DNA of 64,000 nt from a virus. The position numbers were made by a program, and so were the translations under genes. Position 1 is the first letter of the stretch. Each line of letters begins with the position of its first letter. The stretch lies in the IMG/VR virus record IMGVR_UViG_3300020391_000005, positions 20,833 to 84,832 of that record. One strand, 5' to 3'. The notes beneath the pieces are model-generated. The model ran no database searches, was not told the origin of the DNA, and saw only the letters and a program-made list of their open reading frames with translations. This document shows, piece by piece, positions 26,171 through 62,579 of the stretch.

Positions 26171-27757
26171 GTGCCAATAAAACTTACAAAGCAAGAAATA
26201 ATGAGAGAAATAGTTAAGTGTGGCAAGAACCCTGACTATTTTATTTATACGTATGCTAAAATTACACACCCCATAAAAGGCTTGATACCTTTTCACCTAT
26301 ATCCATTTCAAAAACAATTGATAGAAGATTTCGAAGACAATCGATTCAATGTAATATTAAAAGCTAGGCAACTTGGCATATCTACTGTAACAGCTGCATA
26401 TGTAGCTTGGATGATGTTATTTCGTAGAGAAAAAAATGTGCTAGTTATTGCAACTAAATTTAACACTGCTGCAAATCTGGTAAAAAAAGTAAAAGCCATT
26501 ATAAAAAATCTACCAGACTGGTTAAAAATCTCTACAGTTGAGATCGATAATAGAACATCATTCGTTTTAGACAATGGGTCACAGATAAAGGCATCTTCAA
26601 CTTCTGGGGATGCAGGACGTTCCGAAGCTCTATCTCTTCTTGTTATTGATGAGGCAGCGCATGTTGAGGGATTGGAGGACTTATGGATGGGCCTGTATCC
26701 TACATTGTCAACTGGTGGTCGCTGTATTGCTTTGTCTACTCCAAACGGTGTTGGAAACTGGTTTCACAAGACATATTCCGAAGCAGAGAATAAAATAAAT
26801 GATTTTTTCCCTACAAAATTACCATGGGATGTACACCCTGATAGAAATTACGACTGGTTTGAAAAAGAAACTAAAAACATGTCCAAGAGAGAGATAGCTC
26901 AAGAGCTTAAGTGTAATTTTAATATGTCTGGAGAAACAGTATTTGCTTCGGAAAATATTCAATCATATTTAAATATGGTTTGTGAACCAAAACATAGAAC
27001 AGGCTTTGATAGAAATCTTTGGATCTGGGAGGAACGAAAGCAAGAAAATACGTATTTAGTTTCTGCAGATGTCGCACGAGGAGATGGAAAAGATTATTCA
27101 GTCTGTCATGTTTTAAAATTAGAAACTATGGAGATAGTTGCAGAATATCAAGGAAAAGTTACACCCGATATATTTTCTAGAGTATTAAACGATGTTGGTA
27201 GAGAGTATGGAGACGCTCTCTTGGTTGTAGAAAATAATTCTGTTGGGTTTGCGGTTTTAGAAAAATTAAAAGAATTACAATATCCAAACTTATATCACTC
27301 GATAAAGTCAACTCATGAATTTGTAGAGGAATATCAAGCAGATCAAATGTCAAATGCAGTATCTGGGTTTTCGACAACTTCTAAAACTCGTCCTCTAATC
27401 GTAGCGAAGATGGAAGAATTCATTAGAAACAATCTAATTAAAATATATTCTTCAAGGCTTCTTATGGAGATGGAGACTTTTGTATGGAATAACGGCCGCG
27501 CTGAGGCGATGAGATCATACAATGATGATTTAATAATGTCTTGCGCCGTCGCCTGTTGGGTTAGGGATACTGCTTTGTCAAAAAACCATAAAGATCTAGA
27601 ATACAATAAAGCCTTTATTGGAGCGATAACAATGAGTTCAAACCAACTAGATACTAGAATAAAAGGTATGACTGGAACTAGAAAACTAAAAATGTCTGAA
27701 GAAATCAATAAACATGCAAAAGCAACAACTGACTTCCCTTGGTTGTTTAAAGGATAA
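26171..27757 (+). CDS. Terminase large subunit (gp17-like)
   Basis: 528 residues from a GTG start. The N-terminal ATPase has KARQLGIST (64-72) as Walker A, lacking the usual lysine after LG (Ile in its place, as I recall from T4-like cyanophage terminases), and Walker B LLVIDEAAHVE with D160/E161. The C-terminal RNase H-like nuclease has D300 in VSADVARGDGKDYS, VVENNSVGFAVLEKL, and YNDDLIMSCAVA near the end. It drives DNA into the prohead through the portal encoded next and cuts the concatemer. Confidence 0.93.
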   Translation: MPIKLTKQEIMREIVKCGKNPDYFIYTYAKITHPIKGLIPFHLYPFQKQLIEDFEDNRFNVILKARQLGISTVTAAYVAWMMLFRREKNVLVIATKFNTAANLVKKVKAIIKNLPDWLKISTVEIDNRTSFVLDNGSQIKASSTSGDAGRSEALSLLVIDEAAHVEGLEDLWMGLYPTLSTGGRCIALSTPNGVGNWFHKTYSEAENKINDFFPTKLPWDVHPDRNYDWFEKETKNMSKREIAQELKCNFNMSGETVFASENIQSYLNMVCEPKHRTGFDRNLWIWEERKQENTYLVSADVARGDGKDYSVCHVLKLETMEIVAEYQGKVTPDIFSRVLNDVGREYGDALLVVENNSVGFAVLEKLKELQYPNLYHSIKSTHEFVEEYQADQMSNAVSGFSTTSKTRPLIVAKMEEFIRNNLIKIYSSRLLMEMETFVWNNGRAEAMRSYNDDLIMSCAVACWVRDTALSKNHKDLEYNKAFIGAITMSSNQLDTRIKGMTGTRKLKMSEEINKHAKATTDFPWLFKG

Positions 27758-27762
27758 TAAAA

Positions 27763-29814
27763 ATGGCAACTGGAAAGAAAAATAAAAACAATACAAGAAA
27801 TCCTCAAAGTCTACTGTTTAGAAGACTAACAAGGCTTTTATCGGGCCCCATCACTCAATATAGAACACAAAATAATCACAGGTTACGAAGAATAGACCTA
27901 GACAGGTACGCTAATAATTTCACTTCAGCGTCTGGAAAAGATTTTAAAAAAACTGCGTATAATCCATATGACAATCTTACTGCAGCCTATATGCAAGGCC
28001 AAGTTAGAGTTGAAAGATATGTAGATTTTGATCAGATGGAATACACCCCTGAGATTGCATCGGCATTAGATATATACGCGGATGAAATGACAACTCATTC
28101 GTCTTTGACACCGATGTTAAAAGTAGATTGTGATAATCAGGAAATAAAAGCTATTTTAGAATCATTGTATGAAAGTGTTTTAAATGTTCAACATAATTTA
28201 TTTTCGTGGTGTAGAACAATGTGTAAATACGGAGATTTTTTTCTTTATTTAGATATTGATGATAGTTTGGGAATTACATCTGCGATTGGTCTCCCAGCAA
28301 CAGAAATAGAAAGGCTAGAAGGAGAAGACAAAAAAAACCCTAATTACGTACAGTTTCAGTGGAACTCAGCAGGTCTTACGTTTGAGAACTGGCAAGTAGG
28401 TCACTTTAGGATTTTGGGTCAAGATAAATTCAATCCTTATGGTACATCTGTTCTAGATCCAGCAAGAAGAATATGGCGTCAGTTAACCCTACTTGAAGAC
28501 GCGATGATGGCATATAGAATTGTAAGATCACCAGAAAGAAGAGCATTCTACATTGATGTTGGAAATATTCCTCCGCAAGATGTGGAGCAATATATGCAAA
28601 AGGTGATGACAACTATGAAGAGAAATCAAGTAGTTGATGCTCAAACTGGCAGAGTTGACTTGAGATATAACCCGCTATCAATTGAAGAAGATTATTTCAT
28701 ACCGGTGCGTGGCCAAAGCGCAACTAAAATTGAACCAGTAGCTGGGGGTAAATATACCGGAGACATTGATGATGTTAAATATCTTAGAGATAAATTGTTC
28801 TCTGCCTTAAAGGTTCCAGCAGCATATATTTCTTCTGATTCTGACAAAGCATCGGAAGATAAAACTACCTTAGCTCAAAAAGATATTCGCTTTGCAAGAA
28901 CTATTCAAAGGCTTCAAAGATCTGTTATTACTGAACTAGAAAAAATTGGAATTATTCACCTTTACACACTGGGATATAGAGATGAAGATTTAGTTTCATT
29001 CACTTGTCACCTGAACAATCCCTCCAAGATTGCGGAAATGCAGGAACTCGAACACTGGAAAACTAGATTTGAAATTGTCGGTGGTGCTACTGAAGGATTC
29101 TTTTCAAAGCAGTGGCTTGCGAAAAAACTATTTGGATTGTCAGATGAAGAATTTGTTCAGTGTAGAAGACAATTGTTTTACGACAAGAAATTTGATGCTA
29201 TGTTAGAGACTGCCGGCGAAGCAGCACAAGCTGAAATGACTGCTGGGTTAGATGCTGGCCCAGATACACTTGATACAGGCACCACTCCAGGCGGCGATCT
29301 TGGAGAGCCAGGTGGCACCGGTGCAGTAGGCGCAGAACCTGATTTGGCCGCGGCAGGAGCTGACGCTGGCGCTCCCGGAGAGCCCGGAACAGGCACTCCG
29401 CCCGCTACACCTGATACAGGAGCCGGAGGCACACCCGCTGATGGTGGTCTCTTAACAGCACCACCGGGAAACAAAAGAGATGAAATATCAAAAATAACTT
29501 ATAAAGATGGAAGCACTTCAACGCCTAAATCACATGGCAAGTATAAGCCAGTAGGTAACAAAGACGGGCGCAAATCTCGAGGCCCTAGGCTAAAAAATAT
29601 GAAAAGAGCAGCATCTCCAGAATTTGGTACAATGAGGAGTTTGTTTGCTGGTTCTGGTGAACTATCACAATTAGTAAGAGGTACAAGTACTTATGCTACT
29701 GAAAATACTATTTATAAAGTAGAGGAAAAAAAGATCTTAAAAAATCAAAAAGAATTAGATTCTTTATTTGAAAGCTTGAAAGCAAGGAATAAAAAAGATG
29801 AGACTAAAACATAA
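27763..29814 (+). CDS. Portal protein (gp20-like) with low-complexity C-terminal tail
   Basis: 683 residues, longer than T4 gp20 (524). The T4 portal core is recognisable: EIASALDIYADEMTT, RIVRSPERRAFYIDVGNIP, KYTGDIDDVKYLRDKLF, and LKVPAAYI. The dodecameric portal is the DNA gateway and head nucleation site. The extra length is a Gly/Ala/Pro/Thr-rich, locally GC-rich segment (about 29210-29470) followed by a basic stretch and a charged end. It starts 5 bp after terminase and overlaps the next gene by 17 bp. Confidence 0.92.
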   Translation: MATGKKNKNNTRNPQSLLFRRLTRLLSGPITQYRTQNNHRLRRIDLDRYANNFTSASGKDFKKTAYNPYDNLTAAYMQGQVRVERYVDFDQMEYTPEIASALDIYADEMTTHSSLTPMLKVDCDNQEIKAILESLYESVLNVQHNLFSWCRTMCKYGDFFLYLDIDDSLGITSAIGLPATEIERLEGEDKKNPNYVQFQWNSAGLTFENWQVGHFRILGQDKFNPYGTSVLDPARRIWRQLTLLEDAMMAYRIVRSPERRAFYIDVGNIPPQDVEQYMQKVMTTMKRNQVVDAQTGRVDLRYNPLSIEEDYFIPVRGQSATKIEPVAGGKYTGDIDDVKYLRDKLFSALKVPAAYISSDSDKASEDKTTLAQKDIRFARTIQRLQRSVITELEKIGIIHLYTLGYRDEDLVSFTCHLNNPSKIAEMQELEHWKTRFEIVGGATEGFFSKQWLAKKLFGLSDEEFVQCRRQLFYDKKFDAMLETAGEAAQAEMTAGLDAGPDTLDTGTTPGGDLGEPGGTGAVGAEPDLAAAGADAGAPGEPGTGTPPATPDTGAGGTPADGGLLTAPPGNKRDEISKITYKDGSTSTPKSHGKYKPVGNKDGRKSRGPRLKNMKRAASPEFGTMRSLFAGSGELSQLVRGTSTYATENTIYKVEEKKILKNQKELDSLFESLKARNKKDETKT

Positions 29815-34612: not shown

Positions 34613-36421
34613 ATGTCTATTTTACAAAAATTAACAGAAGGCGTTCAGAACCGTAATATGGAAGCTGAAGGAAACGCTCTTCTTCAAAAGTGGGAAGCAA
34701 CTGGATTGCTTGAAGGTCTTAATGAAGGCCACAACAAGCAGGGAATGGCAGTTCTTCTCGAAAACCAGGCAAAAGAACTTCTTCGCGAAGCATCCGCAAT
34801 GGGTAGCGGCGATGTTGAAGGTTTTGCGTCTGTAGCATTCCCAATCGTTCGCCGTGTTTTCGGCGGCTTGATTGCAAATGATCTTGTATCGGTACAGCCA
34901 ATGAGCTTACCATCAGGACTTATTTTCTTTCTTGACTTTCTTAAGAGCCCAGACGTCCGTCCTAACCAGCCTGGTTCCGACCAGTCTGTATATGGCGGAA
35001 ACGTCATCGGTAGCCAAATAACCGGTGGTGTCGATCTCGGTAGCGAGACAAAAGTTGAACCAGGTCAGTTCTATGATCTTGATACTGGCTTTTCTCACGC
35101 CACAGGTTCAGCTGTTGCTGCAAAAGACGCCAACAGCTACTCTGGAGGTCTTCAAGTAGATACAGTTCAAGTACAAAACAAGCTTGTTTCTGAACTTACA
35201 GAAGCAGAAAAGAAGCTAATTCGTTTTGATGCGGACTTGCTTGAAAACAATTCTGCAGATAAGATTGTAATCCTTGACTGTGATATTACAAAGCTTGATA
35301 ACTTTAACAGAGATGCCGCAACTGCAGTTCATGCAGGTTCTGGTACGTCTATTAAGTTTGTTGATGACTCGGTTGGCGATAACGTTATCACCGACGCCGG
35401 CGCAAATGTACGTCAAGTTCGAAGGCTTACTCAAGTTGTTGATAATGCAACGTTACGTATTGTACTCGTTGATCTCAGCGGTGCAGACATTGGACCAAGC
35501 GCCGGACAAACATGGGCCGCAGACGATGCCGTTGGTATCTTGGCATATCCATTTACCGATGATCGTGAAGCTGTAACGAACGGTCTTGGTGCAATCAACC
35601 TTGATACTACCGCAACAGGCTTTGGCATACCGCTTGAAAAGGCGCAAGACATGGCTGAAATCGATATTAAGGTCGATTCAATCGCCGTGACCGCACAGAC
35701 CAAGAAGTTGAAGGCTAAGTGGACTCCTGAGTTGGGACAAGACCTTAATGCTTATCACAATTTGGATGCTGAGGTTGAGCTTACAGGTATTCTTTCAGAG
35801 CAAATCGCTCTAGAAATTGATCGTGAGCTTCTTGGTGATCTTGTTCAGGGTGCAAAGGCTGGTACACGTTACTGGAGCCGCGCCCCGGGTCTTTTCGTTG
35901 ACTCACAAGGTAGAGAACTTGGTGCTTCTTCGGCAGCTCCTGACTTCACCGGTACAGTTAGCGAGTGGTATGAGACTCTCATTGAAACAATCAATGACGT
36001 AAGCGCTCAGATCCACAGAAAGACACTTCGTGGCGGTGCAAACTTTGTTGTTTGCTCTCCAGAGATTGCTAACATCCTTGAGTTCACAAGTGGTTTCCGC
36101 GCAAGCGTTACTGCTGATCAGGACCGAGGCACCATCGGCGCTATCCGCGCTGGTAGCTTGAGTAAGAAGTTTGACGTTTACGTTGATCCTTACTTCTTGC
36201 GTAACGTTATCCTCGTAGGTCGTAAGGGTAGCTCGTTCCTTGAGAGCGGCTTTGTATATGCTCCTTATGTACCATTGCAGGTAACACCTACCATTTTCGG
36301 TACGGAAGACTTCGTACCACGTAAGGGCGTTATGACCCGTTACGCTAAGAAGATGGTACGACCTGATATGTACGGTCTTGTTATTTGTCGTGGTCTCCTC
36401 GGTGAGGAAGGCTCTAAGTAA
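34613..36421 (+). CDS. Major capsid protein (gp23-like)
   Basis: 602 residues after a near-perfect AAAGGAGGTGAA ribosome site, fitting very high expression. The N-terminal 59 residues form a helical propeptide; ELLRE (55-59) gives an L-x-E protease site close to the T4 gp23 cut after E65. Downstream are the T4 capsid elements VAFPIVRRVFGGLIANDLVS and VQPMSLPSG, and the C-terminal TRYAKKMVRPDMYGLVICR. Arginine is mostly CGT/CGC here, unlike AGA in neighbours, a sign of translational optimisation. A terminator follows. Confidence 0.94.
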   Translation: MSILQKLTEGVQNRNMEAEGNALLQKWEATGLLEGLNEGHNKQGMAVLLENQAKELLREASAMGSGDVEGFASVAFPIVRRVFGGLIANDLVSVQPMSLPSGLIFFLDFLKSPDVRPNQPGSDQSVYGGNVIGSQITGGVDLGSETKVEPGQFYDLDTGFSHATGSAVAAKDANSYSGGLQVDTVQVQNKLVSELTEAEKKLIRFDADLLENNSADKIVILDCDITKLDNFNRDAATAVHAGSGTSIKFVDDSVGDNVITDAGANVRQVRRLTQVVDNATLRIVLVDLSGADIGPSAGQTWAADDAVGILAYPFTDDREAVTNGLGAINLDTTATGFGIPLEKAQDMAEIDIKVDSIAVTAQTKKLKAKWTPELGQDLNAYHNLDAEVELTGILSEQIALEIDRELLGDLVQGAKAGTRYWSRAPGLFVDSQGRELGASSAAPDFTGTVSEWYETLIETINDVSAQIHRKTLRGGANFVVCSPEIANILEFTSGFRASVTADQDRGTIGAIRAGSLSKKFDVYVDPYFLRNVILVGRKGSSFLESGFVYAPYVPLQVTPTIFGTEDFVPRKGVMTRYAKKMVRPDMYGLVICRGLLGEEGSK

Positions 36422-51716: not shown

Positions 51717-54015
51717 AAAAGATATAAAGTTCAGTGAGCAAGGTTACTTGATTTACGAAAAATTTATTAAAAACAAAGGGATTAGAACACGATCTAAAGA
51801 TTCCAAAAGTGATATAAATTTGGAAGCTTTAAAAGATAGTATTACTGTACATAAAGTTATAGGTCAATATACGCCTGTAGATTTTATTTCTAAAGTAACT
51901 AAAAAAAATAAATTAAACACTTATAAAAATCTGTTTGATTTGGAAACACATAAATTAACATCTTTAGTACCATACGTTAAGCTATTCAAAGTGGAAAATA
52001 ACAAAAATATACCCTTTTATTTTCCTACTGCCGCAGAAAAAACCACAATTCAAAGTATTTTACAGCAAGGGTCTGGTATCAACGCATCAGCAATTCAATC
52101 TTTTGATATGAAGTTCACTGGACAAGATCCCTTTACTCTTGATAAGCAAATTGAGTGCTCTTTAGTGATATTTGTTGATACATTAGAAAATATATTTAAA
52201 GAGCCACCAGCCGGCTTTGCAACACTTGCAGACATTTTTACTATTTCCAGAACTAAGTATAAATCGCTAAAAGAAAGCATGTCAAAAGAGGTCTCTTCAC
52301 AGCAGATAAATAGAGCATCTAGTCATGAAATATTAGCATCTGTTGGTTATCATGTAGATTCAAAATCAACTATTTTTAGTAGGAAAGAAAGACAAGCAGT
52401 AGAGAACACAGTAACGACCGTTAGGTTAACAATAACAAATCACAACATCAGTTTAAACCAAGATGGAACGGCTACAATAAGCATAGATTTCATAGGCAGG
52501 CTTAGTGGCCTGTTAAATGATTCTTTTTATAATGTTTTAGCAAACGAGGCCGATTTACTAGCTTTAAGCGATTTTCAAGACGAAAAGGAGGACATACTAC
52601 TAGAGCCGGATGAGGCTATAAGAAAAGAAAAAAGAGAGGCACTAGATAAGAGAATTAGGCAATCCGTAAGAACAAGATTTAGAAAAGTTTTAGAATATCT
52701 TGAAGTGGGTGGAAAGGTCGCAGATATAGCATATGAAAACACTAGAATTCACAATTTATCATTATCAAATAGCGATATTAAAGAATATTTGGATTTTGTA
52801 ACTACTGCAAAAAAATCTTCAGTAGCTACTCAATCTTCAAATCCTAAACCTGCCGCAGATAAAATAGATGAAAATTCAGACAGCCCTGATGATAAAGAGG
52901 CAGCAAGTAAAACTAAAAGTAAAATTGAGTCTAAAGCTTTTATAGCCAATACTAAATCTATAGACTACATTTTTCTAGGAGATTTTTTGGAGTCTCTTAT
53001 TGTTATAACAAAGAATACTATCGAAGAGGCTATAAACGACGTTGAAAAGGACAGAAAATTAACAAATTCATTAAAAACAAGCAAAAAGCTAAAACCCCTA
53101 ACAGAATCTTTAGAAAGTTTAAAAACAACAAAACTTTTATTAGGTAATTTTGTCTACCCCGTAGGTAAAGAAGAATCAATAACTGTAAATGCTGCAGATA
53201 TACCATTATCACTAAGAGTTATTCAGGATTATGTATTCGAGAACATTGAACAACAACATAAAATTAGGCATACGCTTGGAAATTTATTTACAGATGTTGT
53301 TACTAAAATATTACCAAGGGCCCTCAAGCAGCACACTTATATTGATGCGCCTGAGATTGATGATGTAACATACAAATCTATTATATTGACAGGTGATAAA
53401 GTAAAGGATTTGGAGTTTGGTGTTGATGTAGATATAAAAAATCTGCCCGATTTTGTAAAGCAGAAAAGTAGAAAAAGATCAGCAGATGACGATATTGATT
53501 ATCTTGTAATGTATGCAGAAATTTCTAAAAAAATGCCATCTGGCTTAGATGGCAATTTAAGAAAAGATGCATCAAATGGTATATATCATTTTAATTTGGG
53601 CAAAGATAGGGGTATGTTAAAGTCCATAAATTTTTCTCAAATAAACCAACAGTTTAGAAGAGAGGCTCTAATGATGGAGTCTGTTAGTTTATATGATGAG
53701 CTTAAGATGCCGTATAGTGCATCGATTACCATGTTTGGTAATGGATTGTTTCTACCCGGATCGGTCGTTTACATAAATCCTTCAAGTGTAGGTTTTGGAG
53801 ACCCTAGAAACAAAAGGTCGGCCTCAGCCAGACTTGGTCTAGGTGGATATTATACAGTGATTTCAGTACAGACTACGTTTAATAGTGGACAATTAAATAC
53901 GACCTTGCAAGCTGAGTATTTATCTTGGGCTGATGCAGATACTACTAGAATGTCAGAGACAATAGATTCACTCAGACTGCAGGCACTTGCAACTATTGAT
54001 AGAGGAGAAAGATAG
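51709..54015 (+). CDS. Large baseplate protein, probable hub component (gp27-like position)
   Basis: 768 residues. The N-terminal half contains strand-rich segments (AIQSFDMKFTGQDPFTLDKQ, TTVRLTITNHNISLNQDG); a low-complexity Ser/Asp/Lys stretch (~380-410) follows; the C-terminus (LKMPYSASITMFGNGLFLPG, GGYYTVISVQTTFNSGQLNT) has the closing pattern of hub/VgrG-type domains. It overlaps gp53-like and is followed 1 bp later by another structural gene. Hub assignment is from pattern and position. Confidence 0.55.
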   Translation: MNKKDIKFSEQGYLIYEKFIKNKGIRTRSKDSKSDINLEALKDSITVHKVIGQYTPVDFISKVTKKNKLNTYKNLFDLETHKLTSLVPYVKLFKVENNKNIPFYFPTAAEKTTIQSILQQGSGINASAIQSFDMKFTGQDPFTLDKQIECSLVIFVDTLENIFKEPPAGFATLADIFTISRTKYKSLKESMSKEVSSQQINRASSHEILASVGYHVDSKSTIFSRKERQAVENTVTTVRLTITNHNISLNQDGTATISIDFIGRLSGLLNDSFYNVLANEADLLALSDFQDEKEDILLEPDEAIRKEKREALDKRIRQSVRTRFRKVLEYLEVGGKVADIAYENTRIHNLSLSNSDIKEYLDFVTTAKKSSVATQSSNPKPAADKIDENSDSPDDKEAASKTKSKIESKAFIANTKSIDYIFLGDFLESLIVITKNTIEEAINDVEKDRKLTNSLKTSKKLKPLTESLESLKTTKLLLGNFVYPVGKEESITVNAADIPLSLRVIQDYVFENIEQQHKIRHTLGNLFTDVVTKILPRALKQHTYIDAPEIDDVTYKSIILTGDKVKDLEFGVDVDIKNLPDFVKQKSRKRSADDDIDYLVMYAEISKKMPSGLDGNLRKDASNGIYHFNLGKDRGMLKSINFSQINQQFRREALMMESVSLYDELKMPYSASITMFGNGLFLPGSVVYINPSSVGFGDPRNKRSASARLGLGGYYTVISVQTTFNSGQLNTTLQAEYLSWADADTTRMSETIDSLRLQALATIDRGER

Positions 54016-54016
54016 A

Positions 54017-55183
54017 GTGGCTATAGAATACGGTGGCGGTGCTACAAGCGGTACGCGGGATAATTTTCTTCAAAGAAAAAAATATAAAGAATCAGTTTCG
54101 ATTCCTGGTGTTATGATGTTGGATACTTGGTATGAAAAGCCAAATTATGGTTTATTGACAAAAAATTATGAACCCACTATACTTAGTACTGATGAATTAA
54201 CATTTGAAAGATTTAACAAAGGCGGCTCAAGTAATTTGTTACCATTTGGAATATACACTTCTCCAACTGCTAGGTGTGCTACATTTGTTGTTCAAGCGTT
54301 TAATGATTTTAGAAATGAATATATCGAAAGAGAGAATACTTCTTTATTATCTTATCCAAAATTTATAGAATCATTAATCCCAGCAAAAGGGTACGTGAAT
54401 TTTGACTCTGCCTATCAGCTTTACATATCTACATTAATAGAAAAAGTACTGCCATCTTTGTTAGAAAAAGTTACAGGCATTGAAAACTTTGACTTTTATT
54501 TTGATGAAATTATTGAATCTAACATATCAAAATTTCCCATAACTAGAAGTGGGTTTCTCTTATCGAATAAGTGCCCTATAAATGTTTCAGGTTTGTGCGT
54601 TGAGTTGGCTAGTGTCTCATATTCAGATGACAAAAGCAAAGGGGAAATGATAGCATCAAAAGATTTCCAGTGTTACGCAGAATTAGCAAATGAATATGGG
54701 TTTTATGTAGACAAAAATACGCCATGGAGAATAATAGCCAATCTAGAGTCAGAAAAAATGAAAGAATATATATCATTTACTAGAGAAGATACAAGCACTG
54801 AAATTATATTAAATAAAACATTTAGAACAAAAACTCACTACGATGATATTTCCAGCTTTTATTTTTTTTACAATTCAATTCTATCAAGATTAAAAAAATT
54901 AAAACCTATTAATCTGGGAAGACCCATGTCAGAACTTAAAGCTATTGAAAAAACTTTAAAAATTAGGATGATAGAGGTTGGCTGCAATATGAATAATTAT
55001 CAAGAAAATTTACAAACTGTTCTTGACTTACACAATACTTATAGTGTATACTATCCTAGTAACACATTAAAGCCAGCATCTGCAAAAATAGGTAAAATAT
55101 GTTCCGAACAACTAAAAAATATATATGAAAAAAAAGAAAGTACTAGTAGTAATAACACCACAACACTAAAAAATTATTTATGA
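54017..55183 (+). CDS. Virion structural protein of unknown role
   Basis: 388 residues from the GTG at 54017, chosen because GAGGAGAAAG lies just upstream and the start is 1 bp after the previous stop; an in-frame ATG at 53987 is inside that gene. SIPGVMMLDTWYEKPNYGLL, TAR-C-ATFVVQAFNDFRNEY, and SGFLLSNKCPINVSGL are patterns I associate with structural genes of marine myophages. It ends the tail operon, overlapping the polymerase gene by 4 bp. Confidence 0.6.
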   Translation: MAIEYGGGATSGTRDNFLQRKKYKESVSIPGVMMLDTWYEKPNYGLLTKNYEPTILSTDELTFERFNKGGSSNLLPFGIYTSPTARCATFVVQAFNDFRNEYIERENTSLLSYPKFIESLIPAKGYVNFDSAYQLYISTLIEKVLPSLLEKVTGIENFDFYFDEIIESNISKFPITRSGFLLSNKCPINVSGLCVELASVSYSDDKSKGEMIASKDFQCYAELANEYGFYVDKNTPWRIIANLESEKMKEYISFTREDTSTEIILNKTFRTKTHYDDISSFYFFYNSILSRLKKLKPINLGRPMSELKAIEKTLKIRMIEVGCNMNNYQENLQTVLDLHNTYSVYYPSNTLKPASAKIGKICSEQLKNIYEKKESTSSNNTTTLKNYL

Positions 55184-56310
55184 TATTACAAACATTAGAT
55201 ATTGAAAATAACTGCACCGGCGTTTTCCATGATAATAAAATTATTTTAGATAACTATCAAGATATTTTACAAAATTACAATTTGGCATGGAGGCATACGC
55301 CAATGTTAAATGATGAAAAGTATAAATATTTATTTCTTCTACTAAAACAAGAAGAATTATCACATTTTTGTCATGATTCGGAACTGTTTAAAAAGTGTAA
55401 AATAAAGATGTTAGCACATCAGAAAGCAGCCACAGCAGCTAAAATTAATTTTCAAGAGTCTTGTTTTTTTGACTTGATACCAGAACATCAACTTTTAAAA
55501 TGGTTTCAGATTCGTAAAGATGCTTTATTAAATTTATATAATACTAAGTCATTTGATGAAGATTATAATATACTGCATAAAATTCACGTACTCACAACAA
55601 ATATATCTAGGCAAAACATTATTTTTAATAAAGCCATTGGGAGAGTTGTGTATAATATGTTCGGTTCAGCAACCGGAAGGTTGACAACAAACAAGGGATC
55701 TGTTCCTGTGCTAACATTAAAAAAGGAGCAAAGAAATTTACTTGAACCAAGCAATGATGCGTTTGTAGAACTCGACCTAAATGCAGCTGAGATTAGAATG
55801 CTTATGGCACTGTCTGGCAAAGAACAGCCTCAAGGAGATATTCACAATCATTTACAAAACAAGATTTTTGGTCAAAATCTTTCACGCTCGAGTTTTAAAG
55901 AAAAACTCTTCGCATGGTTATACAATCCCGTATCTAAAGATCTAGATTTTGACAGCTTCTTTTCTCGGAAAACATTTAAAAATTTTTATGATTTAAAGAA
56001 TCATATATTAAAGACTCCTTTTGGTCGTAAGTTGCAAGTAGAAGAAAGAAAGGCTCAAAATTATTTACTTCAATCAACGACTTCAGATCAGGTTCTCGAA
56101 AACGCATATAAAATTCAAAAAATGCTTAAGCATAAGAAGTCTAAAATTGCATTTACACTTCACGATTCAATTATTCTTGACATGTCGTTAAAAGATGCTA
56201 TAATGTTAAAAGATATAAAAAACCAGTTTGAGTATACTCGATGGGGTATGTTTCCAAGCACCTGCAAAATAGGCAAAACTTTTGGAACTTTGAAGGAAAT
56301 TAAAATTTGA
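55180..56310 (+). CDS. Compact family A (Pol I-type) DNA polymerase
   Basis: 376 residues. Polymerase landmarks are in order: SATGRLTTNKGS (163-174, the TGRLSS motif), motif A VELDLNAAEIRML with D199, a reduced motif B around FKEKLFAWLYNP (239-250), the NYLLQSTTSDQV segment (294-305), and motif C LHDSIIL with D329. The N-terminal ~140 residues are too short for a 3'-5' exonuclease domain. T4 uses a family B enzyme, so this is a different replicase or an accessory polymerase. ATGA overlap with the upstream gene; the next gene starts inside its stop. Confidence 0.75.
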   Translation: MILQTLDIENNCTGVFHDNKIILDNYQDILQNYNLAWRHTPMLNDEKYKYLFLLLKQEELSHFCHDSELFKKCKIKMLAHQKAATAAKINFQESCFFDLIPEHQLLKWFQIRKDALLNLYNTKSFDEDYNILHKIHVLTTNISRQNIIFNKAIGRVVYNMFGSATGRLTTNKGSVPVLTLKKEQRNLLEPSNDAFVELDLNAAEIRMLMALSGKEQPQGDIHNHLQNKIFGQNLSRSSFKEKLFAWLYNPVSKDLDFDSFFSRKTFKNFYDLKNHILKTPFGRKLQVEERKAQNYLLQSTTSDQVLENAYKIQKMLKHKKSKIAFTLHDSIILDMSLKDAIMLKDIKNQFEYTRWGMFPSTCKIGKTFGTLKEIKI

Positions 56311-57164
56311 AAACAGTATTAGGAATAGGAACAGCAGGTTCCAACATAGTGAAACAATTTTCAAAGTATAAAATGTATAAAATTTATACTGTTTGCGCCG
56401 AAAATACTAAAACAACAAAATACAATTTCAAAATACCAGAACTTGACGGTCCAGAAGAGTACGAAATTATGGATACGAAAAAATTAGAAAAATGGCTTTC
56501 TACAATCGATAGAAATTGCACTGTTTTTTTGTGCGGAGCTTCAAATTCTTCAGGTCTAACTTTGAAAGCATTGCACTCTCTCTACAAAAAAGGTGTTAAA
56601 TTAGATATTGTATACTTTATGCCAGAGATAGAAGTGTTATCAGAAGAAAAAACATTGAATGAAAGAGCAGTTAGAAATATATTACAAAATTATGCAAGAA
56701 GTGGCTTATTTGAAAAAATATGTCTTGTATCCAATCTTAATTTAGAGCATCTAGTTGGCTCAGCCAGTGTATATGATTATTACGAAAAAATAAATAATGT
56801 TTTTACAAGTACATATTATATGTTGGATGTGTTTAAAAATACAAAACCGATTACATCTACATTTAAGAGGCCGAAAGAATCATGCCGAATAACAACAATT
56901 GGAATATCTTCCTTAGATGAAGAAGATAAATTATTTTTTCCTTTTAAGCAAGAAGTCGATGTAGTATACTACTACGGTATTGAAGAAGAAAAATTAAAAA
57001 CAGAGGAAAATTTGTTTAGAACAATTACAAACAGAGTAAAATCAAAAATCACAGAAGAAAAAAAAGTCTCATTTGGGATCTATCCAACACAATACGAAAA
57101 CGATTATATCTATGCAGAGTACTTTTCTCCAAAAATACAAGAAATAATTGTTGACTCAGAATAA
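56307..57164 (+). CDS. FtsZ/tubulin-like GTP-binding protein (candidate)
   Basis: 285 residues from a TTG (AAGGAAA upstream; overlaps the polymerase stop). N-terminal TVLGIGTAGSNIVKQF matches the G-x-G-x-x-G nucleotide loop of FtsZ/TubZ. A strand and Gly/Ser loop CGASNSSGLTLKAL (76-89) sits where the tubulin G-box (GGGTGSG) lies, though degenerate. NERAVRNILQNYARSGLFEK, then ICLVSNLNLEHLVG and a long helix (INNVFTSTYYMLDVF), follow the FtsZ order, and a second beta-rich domain ends the chain. Phage tubulins (PhuZ) centre and transport DNA or capsids. A Rossmann-type protein of other function is the main alternative. Confidence 0.45.
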   Translation: MKTVLGIGTAGSNIVKQFSKYKMYKIYTVCAENTKTTKYNFKIPELDGPEEYEIMDTKKLEKWLSTIDRNCTVFLCGASNSSGLTLKALHSLYKKGVKLDIVYFMPEIEVLSEEKTLNERAVRNILQNYARSGLFEKICLVSNLNLEHLVGSASVYDYYEKINNVFTSTYYMLDVFKNTKPITSTFKRPKESCRITTIGISSLDEEDKLFFPFKQEVDVVYYYGIEEEKLKTEENLFRTITNRVKSKITEEKKVSFGIYPTQYENDYIYAEYFSPKIQEIIVDSE

Positions 57165-57263: not shown

Positions 57264-58016
57264 ATGGCACTTAATTTAGACGCAATGAAAGCGAAGTTAG
57301 ATAAACTTAACGGAAAAGGTGACGGAGGAAAAAAGAACTTTTGGAGACCCGAGGACGGTGAAAGTAATATTCGTATTGTTTCCACGCCAGACGGCGATCC
57401 GTTCAAGGAAAAGTTTTTCCACTATGGAATCGGTGGACAATCCTTTTTGTGTCCCAAAAGAAATTTCGGAGATGATTGCCCAGCCTGCAACTTTGCAAAT
57501 AAACTTTGGAACGAGGGCACTGAAGAAAGTAAAAGGCAAGCAAAAGAAATGTTTGCAAAGCAAAGATTCTTTTCTCCTGTTCTCGTTCGTGGAGAAGAGT
57601 CTGAAGGTATTAGAGTATGGGGTTATGGCAAAATGGCCTATGAAAAACTTCTTACAATTGTACTTGACCCTGACTATGGAGACATTACAGATCCGGAAAC
57701 TGGAAATGATCTTAAATTAATGTACGGTAAGTTACCAGGTGCAAGTTTCCCGAGGACAGATATTAGACCTCGCCCAAGAAAAACTGTCCTTTGTGATGAG
57801 GCTGTTGGCGGCGATGATCGCTGCGCAGAATTACTTGAAACCATCCCAAATTTTGATGAGATTTTTGAGAGAAAAACAACAGAGGAAGTTCAGTCAATCA
57901 TGGATCAACACCTAGCCGGTGATTCTGGGAGACCAGAGGTCGAAAAGTTTGGTACAAGTTCAGACAACACGTCTGATTCAGTAGAAGCCGCTTTTAATGA
58001 TTTGTTGAATCAATAG
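57264..58016 (+). CDS. Single-stranded DNA-binding protein (gp32-like)
   Basis: 250 residues after AGGAGG. Basic N-terminus (cooperativity region), then KKNFWRPEDGESNIRIV, zinc-type residues FLCPKRNFGDDCPACNFANK, and an acidic, Ser/Asp C-terminal tail (DNTSDSVEAAFNDLLNQ) that normally recruits replication proteins. It coats single strands during replication and recombination and sits directly before uvsX, 10 bp apart. Confidence 0.88.
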   Translation: MALNLDAMKAKLDKLNGKGDGGKKNFWRPEDGESNIRIVSTPDGDPFKEKFFHYGIGGQSFLCPKRNFGDDCPACNFANKLWNEGTEESKRQAKEMFAKQRFFSPVLVRGEESEGIRVWGYGKMAYEKLLTIVLDPDYGDITDPETGNDLKLMYGKLPGASFPRTDIRPRPRKTVLCDEAVGGDDRCAELLETIPNFDEIFERKTTEEVQSIMDQHLAGDSGRPEVEKFGTSSDNTSDSVEAAFNDLLNQ

Positions 58017-58026
58017 GTAAATAACA

Positions 58027-59148
58027 ATGGCAAAAATTTCAAAATTAAAAAAAGGTGCCCTAGATATAGCATCTATTAGGGGCATTATAAATAAAAAAGC
58101 AGGGAGAGAAGTAGCACACTCTCTACAAGACAATAACCCAACACAAGTTAATGAGTGGATTCCTACTGGTTCGAGATGGTTAGATTCAATTGTTTGCAAA
58201 GGTAAATTAGCCGGCATTCCAGTTGGTAAAATTTCAGAAATTGCAGGATTAGAAGCTACAGGTAAATCTTTTATGGCTGCTAAAGTTGCAGCTAACGCAC
58301 AGGCAATGGGGGTAGACGTGGTTTATTTTGATTCCGAATCGGCTATTGACCCATCTTTTCTTGACCGCGCTGGTTGCGATCTTGAAAAATTAATGTATGT
58401 TCAGGCAGAGTCTGTAGAATTCGTGCTTGAAACAATTGAAGAATTATTATCAACTGGCAATAAATGGTTATTTATTTGGGATTCCCTAGCGTTAACCCCT
58501 TCAATCTCAGATATTGAAGGAGATTTTAACCCTCAATCTTCTATGGCAGTAAAACCTCGCATCTTAGCTAAAGGTTTGTCAAAATTAACTATACCAATTG
58601 CTGATGCTGATGCAACGCTCTTAGTTCTAAATCAGTTAAAAACTAATCTGGGTGCTCGAACTCCAGCGCAAGCCATGACAACACCATATGTAACTCCTGG
58701 TGGTAAAGCGCTTCCATATGCTTACTCTCTACGTATTTGGCTAACTGCAAGAAAAGCAAAAGCCAGCTTTATTTTAGACGATAATGGTTATCGAATTGGA
58801 TCAGAAGTAAAAGTAAAGCTAGAAAAATCTAGATTTGGTACCGCAGGTAGAACTTGTAATTTTAAAATACTGTGGGGTGATGAGTCTGTTGGGGTGCAAG
58901 ATGAAGAAAGTTGGTTTGACGCTATTCAAATTTCTGAAAGACTCAAACAATCTGGAGCTTGGTTTTCAATCGTTCACAAAGATGGCACTGAAACAAAATT
59001 TCAAAGAAAACAGTGGTTAGACAAACTATGTGATGATAAATTTAGAGATACTGTATTGACTATTATGGATGAAGATGTAATTATGAAATTCAGCAATAGA
59101 GAAGGAAATGCAGCAGATTTCTATGATGATGAGGAAAACAAAGAATAA
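58027..59148 (+). CDS. uvsX: UvsX/RecA-like recombinase
   Basis: 373 residues. Walker A GLEATGKS (74-81), a FDSESAIDPSFLDRAG stretch, Walker B LFIWDSLALTP, and loop region VLNQLKTNLGARTPAQAMTT followed by TPGGKALPYAYS are those of T4 UvsX. It forms filaments on ssDNA and drives strand invasion for recombination-dependent replication, with the SSB upstream and the SbcDC-type nuclease at 21192. It ends exactly where the minus-strand gene ends. Confidence 0.93.
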   Translation: MAKISKLKKGALDIASIRGIINKKAGREVAHSLQDNNPTQVNEWIPTGSRWLDSIVCKGKLAGIPVGKISEIAGLEATGKSFMAAKVAANAQAMGVDVVYFDSESAIDPSFLDRAGCDLEKLMYVQAESVEFVLETIEELLSTGNKWLFIWDSLALTPSISDIEGDFNPQSSMAVKPRILAKGLSKLTIPIADADATLLVLNQLKTNLGARTPAQAMTTPYVTPGGKALPYAYSLRIWLTARKAKASFILDDNGYRIGSEVKVKLEKSRFGTAGRTCNFKILWGDESVGVQDEESWFDAIQISERLKQSGAWFSIVHKDGTETKFQRKQWLDKLCDDKFRDTVLTIMDEDVIMKFSNREGNAADFYDDEENKE

Positions 59149-59913
59149 TTAAGAAATTGACCCATCTTTGATTGGAATAGCAATTTTTATAGGATACCCT
59201 TCATACCCAGATGCCTGCCTATATGGAGCAAGTCTTCTAACAGCACTGTAAACACTATCGTCCATTAGCTTGCCAAGATCATCTTTTAAAGACTTTAAAT
59301 TATTTTTTCGGTTAGCGTCGTTAAAATCATAATGGTCTATAAAAACAAACATATTTCCAGCCCTTTGGACAGTTGCAGCACCCAAAAATCTAGAAAGTGA
59401 ATTGAATATTTCAGGTTCAAATACTCCAGTTTTTTGACTGAGTGGTGTTTCTCCTCTTGCTTTCATTTTGGCAAGTTCTCTACGTGAATATTGTTTATAG
59501 TCTTTGCCTAACTGTTGTTTGGATAGATTTCTCCAAACTTGATAGGTGATTGTTCTTTTTCTTCGGGTTCTGTGAGCCCCTAAATATAGAGCAGTTTTTC
59601 TAAGTGCTTCAATCTCTTTTGATGAAAGAAAACTAGCCTGTAAAGTGCTTTCATTTCCAGCTAAAAATCTTGCAAATCCTCTCATATGAATTGGGCCTGG
59701 AGCTTTTATAAAATCCATAAGGCCATCAATAGCATCTTTAGCGCTACCAACTACTCCGGTCATTGCACCACCAAATTTACCAAGAACGTTTCCTATGGCA
59801 TCTCCTGCTTTATCGAGAAATCCTTTTTTATCGTCAGAAGTTTCCTCATTCAATAATTTTTGTTCTCTTTCAAATTTTCTCCAGTTTTCCATGATTTTTT
59901 TCATTTTTGACAT
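59149..59913 (-). CDS. Minus-strand protein with MKKIMENWRKF tag (paralogue A)
   Basis: 254 residues. The N-terminus MSKMKKIMENWRKFEREQK, then LLNEE, and the FLDKAGDAIGNVLGKFGGA segment match the neighbouring 60032-60982 product; so do PIHMRGFARFLAG, SSKEIEALRKTALYLG and RRLAPYRQASGYEGYPIKI. A D-x-Y-D-F motif (IDHYDFNDANR) near residue 195 is shared. The short tag could direct it into the capsid (compare the T4 capsid-targeting sequence; L-N-E is a possible gp21 site). An internal or ejected protein is a hypothesis. It abuts uvsX tail-to-tail with no gap. Confidence 0.6.
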   Translation of the reverse strand: MSKMKKIMENWRKFEREQKLLNEETSDDKKGFLDKAGDAIGNVLGKFGGAMTGVVGSAKDAIDGLMDFIKAPGPIHMRGFARFLAGNESTLQASFLSSKEIEALRKTALYLGAHRTRRKRTITYQVWRNLSKQQLGKDYKQYSRRELAKMKARGETPLSQKTGVFEPEIFNSLSRFLGAATVQRAGNMFVFIDHYDFNDANRKNNLKSLKDDLGKLMDDSVYSAVRRLAPYRQASGYEGYPIKIAIPIKDGSIS

Positions 59914-60031: not shown

Positions 60032-60982
60032 TTAAGGAGTTGTTGCATAACTAGCGTTATTTTTTTGATAGCCCGAGGATATTTGAAAATCTTTTTGCTG
60101 ACTATCAAGCGCGGCTAATGAATTTGTAGTAGCATCACTTAATTTAAAGGTTATTTGAACTTTAAACCCTTTGTAACCAGTCGCGGTCTGTCTATATGGA
60201 GCCATTCTTCTTATCGCTTGGTACATATCATCACCTCCATGCATTGATGGAGTCAGTGCGTTCTTAATATCAAACCAAAGTTCATCAAAATTTTCTTTAG
60301 CTTTAGCATTATTGAAGTCATAAAAATCTGAAATTGTTACATTTCCCGATCTATCGACGGTATATCTGGCATTCCCTAAAAATCTTTGAAATGAATTAAA
60401 AACCTCGCTTGAAAAGATACTTTTTTTCTGTGGAATGTTCATAGTCTTCCTTTTCCGATCTTTTTTTCTTTTTAATCTGGAATATACTTTAAATCCCTCT
60501 GGGTCATTTCTTCTAGAAAGATTCATCCAATGTCCATATGATATTCTTTTTGAGCCACCTAATCTAAGTCTTGAATCAACTTTTTTTGCATTGAACGCCT
60601 TAAATTCTTTGCTTGTTAAGCCCTCTACAGAGCCCAGCATTATTACAGATCTTTCTAAGGCTTCAATTTCTCTTTTTGTAAGATTTTTTTCTGTAAAAAC
60701 TGTTTCAGACCCCAGTAGAAATTTAGCAAAAGCCCTCATGTGTACTGGCATTTTAAAATCTAATGCTTTTTTTTCGATTTGTTTTAGAATTTTATCTTTT
60801 GTGCCAATGAGAGCAGCTTCAGAACTTTTGGCCAAAGTTGTTTCTGCTTCTCCGTACCCACCTAGTAATTTACCTAAAAAGTCGCCGGCTTTATCTAAAA
60901 AAGATTTTTCTTCCTTTTCTGTAATTAAATTAGAAGATTTAAAGCCTCTCCAGTTTTCCATAATTTTTTTCATTTCTGACAT
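60032..60982 (-). CDS. Minus-strand protein with MKKIMENWRGF tag (paralogue B)
   Basis: 316 residues, a paralogue of the downstream minus-strand gene: MSEMKKIMENWRGF, FLDKAGDFLGKLLGGYGEA, PVHMRAFAKFLLGSE, KREIEALERSVIMLG, VFNSFQRFLGNARY, SDFYDFNN, and IRRMAPYRQTATGYKGF. It has extra residues in the middle and a polar C-terminal tail. With its partner it is the only minus-strand gene pair in the window. The tag plus L/I-x-E-type sites (NLITE) suggest a packaged internal protein; function unknown. Confidence 0.6.
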   Translation of the reverse strand: MSEMKKIMENWRGFKSSNLITEKEEKSFLDKAGDFLGKLLGGYGEAETTLAKSSEAALIGTKDKILKQIEKKALDFKMPVHMRAFAKFLLGSETVFTEKNLTKREIEALERSVIMLGSVEGLTSKEFKAFNAKKVDSRLRLGGSKRISYGHWMNLSRRNDPEGFKVYSRLKRKKDRKRKTMNIPQKKSIFSSEVFNSFQRFLGNARYTVDRSGNVTISDFYDFNNAKAKENFDELWFDIKNALTPSMHGGDDMYQAIRRMAPYRQTATGYKGFKVQITFKLSDATTNSLAALDSQQKDFQISSGYQKNNASYATTP

Positions 60983-61616: not shown

Positions 61617-62579
61617 ATGAAAAGACTAATGATAGTAGACGCATATAATCAGTTTATCCGTGGATATATAGTAGACCCTAGTAAGAACCCAAATGGCTCT
61701 CCTATAGGCGGTATTCGTACCTTTATCAATATTTTTAATAAGCTAACAAGAGAGGTCAAACCAGACCTTCTTGTTCTTGTGTGGGATGGCAAAGGTGGAA
61801 GCAAGAAGCGTAGAGCCATGAACAAATCTTACAAGGGCGGTCGTAAACCACCCAGAACTAACTGGTCGCAGGTTGGAATGGCCGACGAGGAGATCATGGA
61901 CAATAAAGTGTGGCAGCAGATGAGGGTTATTGAATACTTTAATCAAACACCTGTCATTCAGTTCATGGAGCCCCTAGTAGAGGCAGATGACGTTATCTCT
62001 TATGTTAAAAACAGTCCGATTTTTAATGAATGGCAAAAAGTGATTGTATCAGCAGATAAAGATTTCATTCAACTTCTTGATGATAAGACAGTCTTGCATA
62101 GACCTATTCAAAAAGAGTACCTGAATAAAAACAGTGTCGTTGATAAATTTGGTATTCACCCCACTAACTTTGCCCTAGCCAGAGCAATCGTTGGAGATTC
62201 TTCCGACAACCTACCTGGTGTACCCAGAGTTGGCATGGAAACTGTTGCAAAACGATTTTCTTTTCTCAAAGAAGAAAATACATACTACTTATCTGATGTT
62301 ATAACTGAATGTGAAAAGCCAGACAATAAGCAAAAAGTATATACAAATATTTTAGATAATAAGGAGTTAATAGAAAATAATTATGATATTATGCAGTTAT
62401 CTTCGCCCATGCTATCTATTCAAGCCAAACAAGGGATTGACGATACGTTTGAGCAATATAAGCCCCACTACAATCAGACGGAAATAAGAAAACTAATGCT
62501 TCAGGACGGAGTACTTACTGTGACAACCACAGATCTGGAACAAAGATTTAATAATATTATCACTTCCTTTTCTGGATGA
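61617..62579 (+). CDS. 5'-3' exonuclease / RNase H (T4 Rnh, FEN family)
   Basis: 320 residues, T4 RNase H being 305. Metal-binding acids in family order: D8 (MIVDAYNQF), D57 (LVWDGKGG), E122/D124/D125 (VEADDVIS), D147/D149 (VSADKDFIQLL), D194/D197 (VGDSSDNLPGV). The helix-hairpin-helix following GVPRVGMETV binds duplex DNA. It removes RNA primers and flaps during lagging-strand synthesis and is the partner of the primase and helicase here. Confidence 0.9.
   Translation: MKRLMIVDAYNQFIRGYIVDPSKNPNGSPIGGIRTFINIFNKLTREVKPDLLVLVWDGKGGSKKRRAMNKSYKGGRKPPRTNWSQVGMADEEIMDNKVWQQMRVIEYFNQTPVIQFMEPLVEADDVISYVKNSPIFNEWQKVIVSADKDFIQLLDDKTVLHRPIQKEYLNKNSVVDKFGIHPTNFALARAIVGDSSDNLPGVPRVGMETVAKRFSFLKEENTYYLSDVITECEKPDNKQKVYTNILDNKELIENNYDIMQLSSPMLSIQAKQGIDDTFEQYKPHYNQTEIRKLMLQDGVLTVTTTDLEQRFNNIITSFSG

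Follow-up and report, generated by a model that had tools for sequence, protein, structure and literature searches.

The phage tubulins in the literature consulted come either from the nucleus-forming jumbo phages, including marine ones of the phiKZ type, which encode PhuZ, or from partition systems of the TubZ type. The filament interface of phiKZ PhuZ is formed by loop T7, the base of helix H8 and strand S9 (PMC3678025), and two distinct FtsZ/tubulin representatives have been noted in jumbo phages in a review (PMC7824862). In the archaeon Nitrosopumilus, FtsZ is reported to carry no recognisable GTP-binding or T7 motifs and to have formed no polymers when expressed in yeast (PMC3684127). Proteins named FtsZ from uncultured Caudovirales are already present in sequence databases; for an FtsZ-like gene as a constant member of a T4-type replication cassette, no description was found in the open-licence literature.

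The window analysed here (64,000 nucleotides) belongs to a virus record 84,832 bases long and contains an open reading frame of 285 codons, hereafter Z, which shares 4 bp (TTGA) with the polA-like gene before it (Table 1). Its relatives, the 13 positions invariant in an alignment of 67 diverse members (sharing 32-78% identity with the window protein) and a dN/dS of 0.03-0.07 (four close pairs with computable dS, which was saturated or zero in the remaining pairs) indicate that Z is a real gene rather than a chance reading frame, bearing out the frame proposed in the earlier note, and Z is under strong purifying selection. A single-protein search of IMG/VR with Z returned 22 relatives of 50-75% identity and nearly full length (one truncated by a contig end), and an alignment-based profile search returned at least 595. 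Beyond the single protein first noted, whose tubulin-like character was correctly recognised, Z is a large and strictly syntenic family. It is carried by hundreds of uncultured T4-type viruses of bacteria, which are apparently marine. No significant relative was detected by tblastn among 50,697 GenBank phage records with the window protein and one distant member as queries. A match in GTDB was located in a WOR-3 MAG (L183, CP070664.1), where a phage cassette with Z lies within the MAG chromosome; the phage piece is flanked by N runs on both sides and is probably a mis-joined scaffold, and it was therefore rejected as host evidence.

Table 1. Features of the Z locus and of its phage setting (window coordinates unless a locus is named)
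Feature	Position	Strand	Basis or remark
Terminase, T4-type gp17	26171-27757		family match
Portal, T4-type gp20	27763-29814		family match
Major capsid protein gp23, T4-type (lineage marker)	34613..36421	+	phrog_138 9.2e-70
Conserved 398-aa protein, upstream of polA	53987..55183	+	order kept in loci reaching it
Compact family-A DNA polymerase, 376 aa, no exonuclease domain	55180..56310	+	PF00476 1.8e-10; alignment A4
Z, divergent FtsZ/tubulin-superfamily protein (predicted)	56307..57164	+	285 aa, TTG start; AlphaFold2 model, Foldseek, relatives
T1 glycine loop GIGTAG, residues 6-11	56322..56339	+	alignment of 67 members
T4/G-box position CGASNSSG, residues 76-83	56532..56555	+	degenerate form of FtsZ GGGTGTG
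N143	56733..56735	+	aligned with E. coli FtsZ N165; 65/67
Central helix H7, residues 158-177, Y159-x3-N163	56778..56837	+	aligned with FtsZ F182/N186
T7/H8 position, residues 178-194, NTKPITSTFKRPKESCR	56838..56888	+	no NxDxxD; no helix H8 in model
C-terminal beta domain of Z	56889..57128	+	AlphaFold2 model; full-length superposition on FtsZ
gp32-like single-strand DNA-binding protein (SSB)	57264..58016	+	PF08804 7.7e-11; phrog_1192 3.2e-21
UvsX-like recombinase	58027..59148	+	phrog_97 9.2e-55
Exonuclease, 5'-3' type by similarity	61617..62579	+	phrog_107 8.2e-23
Second FtsZ-like family (L094 type, alignment A3)	L094:1027-2121	-	also L097-L176

Z is predicted to adopt the full two-domain FtsZ/tubulin fold, in which an N-terminal nucleotide-binding domain is followed by the central helix H7 and a C-terminal beta domain. 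AlphaFold2 with the 67 relatives gave five models in agreement (pLDDT 93.9, pTM 0.91), and with 16 close relatives it gave one confident model (pLDDT 86.4, pTM 0.85) and four poorer ones. In a Foldseek search of 350,542 PDB chains, the check set beforehand in the earlier note, the best 50 matches listed were all FtsZ except one TubZ; they aligned over 308-345 columns covering both domains, with a best match to 1fsz (E 2.6e-13) and query-normalised TM-scores of 0.62-0.71 (one outlier at 0.42); the model from 16 relatives gave the same picture. Among predicted viral proteins (BFVD), A0A6J5RW92 ranked first (TM 0.76); this 452-aa protein comes from an uncultured Caudovirales phage and is annotated 'FtsZ Cell division GTPase', and phage tubulins and PhuZ ranked next. 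Both models thus returned FtsZ, TubZ or PhuZ as best fold matches over both domains, as the note had expected of a tubulin-like protein. The assignment to the tubulin superfamily stands, while the nearest proteins in fold are FtsZ and not PhuZ, to which the TM-scores are lower. In the model the C-terminal domain (residues 195-274) consists of strands 195-201, 218-226, 253-261 and 267-274 and helices within 227-247, an order of elements that fits S7-S8-H10-S9-S10 of FtsZ without H9. The landmarks read from the sequence at the outset recur in this order: GIGTAG at 6-11, CGASNSSG at 76-83, a helix at 113-131 with N118, E119 and N128, a strand at 137-142 leading into VSNLNL, the central helix at 158-177 and the second beta-rich domain at 195-274. 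Prediction therefore gives good support for placing Z in the FtsZ/tubulin superfamily as a divergent and minimal form that lacks H8 and H9.

Profile-profile comparison, likewise proposed in advance, supported the GTPase half and gave no signal for the C-terminal half. With hhalign the Z profile scored 32.2 against FtsZ, 35.6 against PhuZ and 33.9 against the second phage FtsZ family described below, compared with maxima of 19.2, 20.4 and 28.7, respectively, in 40 column shuffles per target. The alignment with FtsZ comprised 160 columns of the GTPase domain in register, and that with PhuZ covered the first 100 residues (100 columns, P = 4e-4). Global hhalign of the family returned no usable match. 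As the C-terminal half is without profile signal, that half of Z rests on structure prediction. Curated families gave little: PF00091 matched two of the 67 members (best E 0.019) and the ftsZ model TIGR00065 five (best 0.063), all below the curated cut-offs, and nothing usable, nor any FtsZ match over cut-off, was returned by Pfam, PHROGs and NCBIfam for the window protein and the 67 members. PADLOC and an hmmsearch against PDB sequences also gave nothing usable, and a designer-PPR match in the latter was rejected as repeat noise.

The nucleotide pocket of Z appears to be kept in part. The T1 loop is largely retained (G8 in 67/67, A10 in 61/67, G6 in 60/67 and G11 in 59/67). The GGGTGTG-type phosphate-binding signature is lacking: the degenerate G-box, already remarked on in the single sequence, is found in every one of the 67 members, with the consensus GAGxxSG, G77 as its sole invariant residue and G83 in 49/67. 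In E. coli FtsZ, N165, F182 and N186 contact the nucleotide, the latter two being guanine contacts, and H7 of beta-tubulin has the same aromatic-x3-Asn spacing. Alignment with FtsZ places an asparagine after S5 and an aromatic-x3-N/D pattern in H7 of Z at the corresponding positions, which are predicted to be guanine contacts; N163 is present in 66/67 members, and the position of Y159 is aromatic in 57/67 (Y in 50, F in 7) and H in 7. Since the phosphate loops are degenerate, nucleotide binding itself may have been lost.

The region that supplies the catalytic loop in canonical relatives, where the NxDxxD motif of T7 and helix H8 complete the GTPase site of the adjoining subunit in the filament, is altered. 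NxDxxD is absent from the T7 region in all 67 members, and helix H8 is absent from the model between H7 (158-177) and the next strand (195-201). With a degenerate G-box and both of these elements missing, it is doubtful that Z is a GTPase of the canonical type or builds dynamic filaments as PhuZ does, and Z is no canonical FtsZ, PhuZ or TubZ. The conclusion that catalysis is lost is tempered by residues 178-180, which read N-x-[D/E] in about half of the distant members (NTK in the window clade), and by E191, conserved in 47/67, although neither lies at the canonical position; judged from the alignment, an unconventional catalytic acid is possible.

Z occupies a fixed place in a replication cassette. 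In all 79 loci, including the window, the order on one strand, as far as sequence reaches, is a large structural-looking gene, the 398-aa gene, polA, Z, SSB, UvsX and the exonuclease, and the position between polymerase and SSB first noted in the window is confirmed by matches of the two neighbours to the family-A polymerase (PF00476) and gp32-like SSB (PF08804) families. The polA stop and the Z start overlap in 46 of the 76 loci in which both ends are visible, by exactly 4 bp in 36 of these, and in 25 distant loci they are separated by about 280-530 bp with one or two small genes. Pairwise distances of Z correlate with those of polA (r = 0.92, 41 genomes) and with those of SSB, UvsX and the exonuclease (r = 0.85-0.91), indicating that Z is inherited vertically with the cassette. 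The T4-type late-promoter box TATAAATA occurs 17 times in the whole window (7.8 expected), with no occurrence at the polA-Z junction in the window scan.

The polymerase is compact across the family (376-430 aa in alignment A4), a length that leaves no space for a full exonuclease domain. Its relatives were recovered by profile search, a close search alone having confirmed none, and TGRL, DxNxxE, Rx3Kx3FxWLY and HDS, which we take to be family-A motifs, show little or no variation among 18 members. No proofreading exonuclease partner (PF00929, PF01612) was detected in the Z-bearing records searched, a search that distant families could escape. The polA-Z gap of L044, L046, L061 and others holds a gene of about 100 aa starting KLVRDRIPEII, with a MazG/phosphohydrolase-type look by eye and no Pfam match at 0.01 for the one tested. 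The interval between Z and SSB holds up to 3.6 kb of cargo in some loci, and the cargo site in L011, L012, L025, L031 and L061 includes genes for DNA methyltransferases and for an ATPase of the HSP90/gyrase type (HATPase_c_3, below cut-off). In the window, the neighbouring genes at 59149-59913 (-) and 60032-60982 (-) have similar starts (MSxMKKIMENWR) and sequences and are apparently paralogues.

The T4-type setting recognised at the outset is upheld by family matches to gp23, gp20 and gp17. Over most of its length the window gp23 is closest, among cultured phages, to the capsid proteins of Microcystis phage Mel-JY01 and Rhodothermus phage RM378, and Flavobacterium immuto phages match part of it; these matches place the phage close to the 'Far-T4' phages, a group of T4-type phages described before (PMC4360716). 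Profile searches found the compact polymerase without Z in Mel-JY01, a Flavobacterium immuto phage, a 484-kb uncultured phage and six long IMG/VR contigs. In these Z-less relatives (L223-L231) polA and SSB are separated by other genes, showing that this slot varies between lineages and that Z is fixed within its own. In three of them (G027, G028, G029) the slot holds an RNase_T-type exonuclease, and as the sequences of G027 and G028 match, these count as two independent cases.

A PF00091 scan of 20 Z-bearing records revealed a different FtsZ-like gene, encoding 364 aa, in one 166-kb contig. This second family has at least 107 relatives in IMG/VR, on uncultured phage contigs of up to 281 kb, and none among the GenBank phages. 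Its proteins, of about 360 aa with an acidic N-terminal extension, carry an intact GGGGGTGS G-box and FDxKD at T7 and match FtsZ at 97.5% in hhalign (E 8.6e-12); judged by this match and these motifs, the family is a clearer and more canonical FtsZ relative than Z. The two families occur together in six records (G016, G020-G023, G039). Searches of the other 19 Z records, among them 159-191 kb contigs of the window clade, did not detect the second family, although these records may be incomplete.

We propose that Z is a tubulin relative that binds GTP, hydrolyses it weakly or not at all and serves as a scaffold linked to replication, a functional reading that we regard as evenly poised between right and wrong. 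Judging from N143, Y159 and N163, Z would most likely still bind guanine nucleotide. Because the NxDxxD T7 loop and H8 are missing, the usual route to GTP hydrolysis across a filament interface would be closed to it, so that it would act as a slow or static GTP-dependent scaffold rather than a treadmilling or spindle-like motor. The conserved translational overlap with polA and the fixed place before SSB and UvsX suggest that Z may be made in step with the polymerase and may organise or anchor the phage replication complex or its DNA. This placement points to a part for a tubulin-like protein in organising DNA replication in viruses from which none had been described. For function the neighbourhood is only circumstantial: the upstream genes look structural, and the Z-less relatives fill the slot otherwise. 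A stronger version, in which Z is a dedicated replisome component, co-made with the polymerase, and organises the replicating DNA of T4-type phages, a lineage apart from the nucleus-forming jumbo phages, by forming scaffolds that are loaded with GTP but not dynamic, is distinctly more speculative, and we consider it possible but rather doubtful. The nearest precedent for the biochemical part of the proposal would be, by analogy, the Nitrosopumilus FtsZ (PMC3684127).

Three other readings are possible. A dynamic filament like that of PhuZ comes first, followed, in approximate order, by a polymerase accessory free of nucleotide and an antagonist of host FtsZ. Z could polymerise with GTP into a cytomotive filament of the PhuZ/TubZ kind that moves phage DNA or replication sites or brings them to the centre, with the altered T7 region providing catalysis; the shared fold, the best profile score of Z, which is with PhuZ, and the N-x-[D/E] after H7 in many distant members would agree with this. 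We nevertheless consider it unlikely, because the interface of phiKZ PhuZ uses T7, the base of H8 and S9 (PMC3678025), the canonical NxDxxD and H8 are absent from Z, and the capsid, portal and terminase are T4-type, unlike those of the nucleus-forming lineage. The degenerate G-box, with its poorly kept G83, and the tight coupling to polA could point to a structural relic that no longer binds nucleotide and whose only role is that of an accessory subunit of the polymerase that happens to retain the FtsZ fold. The conservation of G8, N143, Y158 and N163 in 65-67 of the 67 members, needless in a dead pocket, makes this improbable.

Phage inhibitors of cell division are typically small, early and sporadic proteins. 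That Z might act as a decoy of FtsZ, capping or poisoning the host Z-ring and so making the infected cell elongate, is thus hard to reconcile with its being a core, vertically inherited gene of the replication cassette in every examined locus, and we give this reading little credence, even though the missing T7 and H8 would presumably inactivate one filament end, as in a capping subunit. The possibility that a plain Rossmann-type dehydrogenase or TrkA-like protein had been misread as a tubulin draws on TrkA_N, the strongest Pfam signal in the family (17/67 members, best 8.8e-6), which is read as the beta-alpha-beta start common to Rossmann-like folds. The fold search leads us to reject it as very improbable, since FtsZ/TubZ accounted for all the listed matches over both domains and the central helix and the C-terminal domain are both present in the model; neither of the outcomes that would have spoken against a tubulin, a plain Rossmann dehydrogenase fold or a missing C-terminal domain, was seen.

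Compared with known systems, Z is like bacterial and archaeal FtsZ (PF00091, TIGR00065) in its full-length two-domain fold, its GxGxAG-type T1 loop and its H7 guanine-contact positions, and differs from it in an identity of about 12%, a length of 285 aa, the degenerate G-box and the lack of an NxDxxD T7 loop and of H8 and H9. A0A6J5RW92, the closest viral protein in predicted fold, is much longer and also shares 12% identity. The Nitrosopumilus maritimus FtsZ (Nmar_1262) resembles Z, by its published description, in missing the T7 motif, and is a cellular archaeal protein. PhuZ (phiKZ gp39) is likewise a phage-encoded tubulin relative found among the viral structure matches, but its structural similarity to Z (TM about 0.5) is lower than that of FtsZ, and Z belongs to a T4-type lineage, adjoins polA and SSB and is without the T7/H8 elements of the PhuZ interface. 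TubZ of plasmid and phage partition systems shares the fold (TM 0.70 to 4ei7), whereas Z is shorter, and no TubR-like adaptor was recognised among its neighbours in the 79 loci. The second phage family shares with Z its superfamily and some genomes, but lies elsewhere in the genome, is longer and keeps the G-box and FDxKD at T7. Some relatives have two FtsZ-superfamily genes, one with the catalytic loop and one without. The Z family offers a natural series for asking which parts of the FtsZ machinery, such as the T7 loop, H8 and the G-box, can go while strong selection maintains the fold, and makes a replication role of a tubulin-fold protein directly testable. Beside the PhuZ of jumbo phages and the TubZ of partition systems, Z represents a different, stripped-down FtsZ relative that is a fixed member of the replication cassette in a large uncultured T4-type group.
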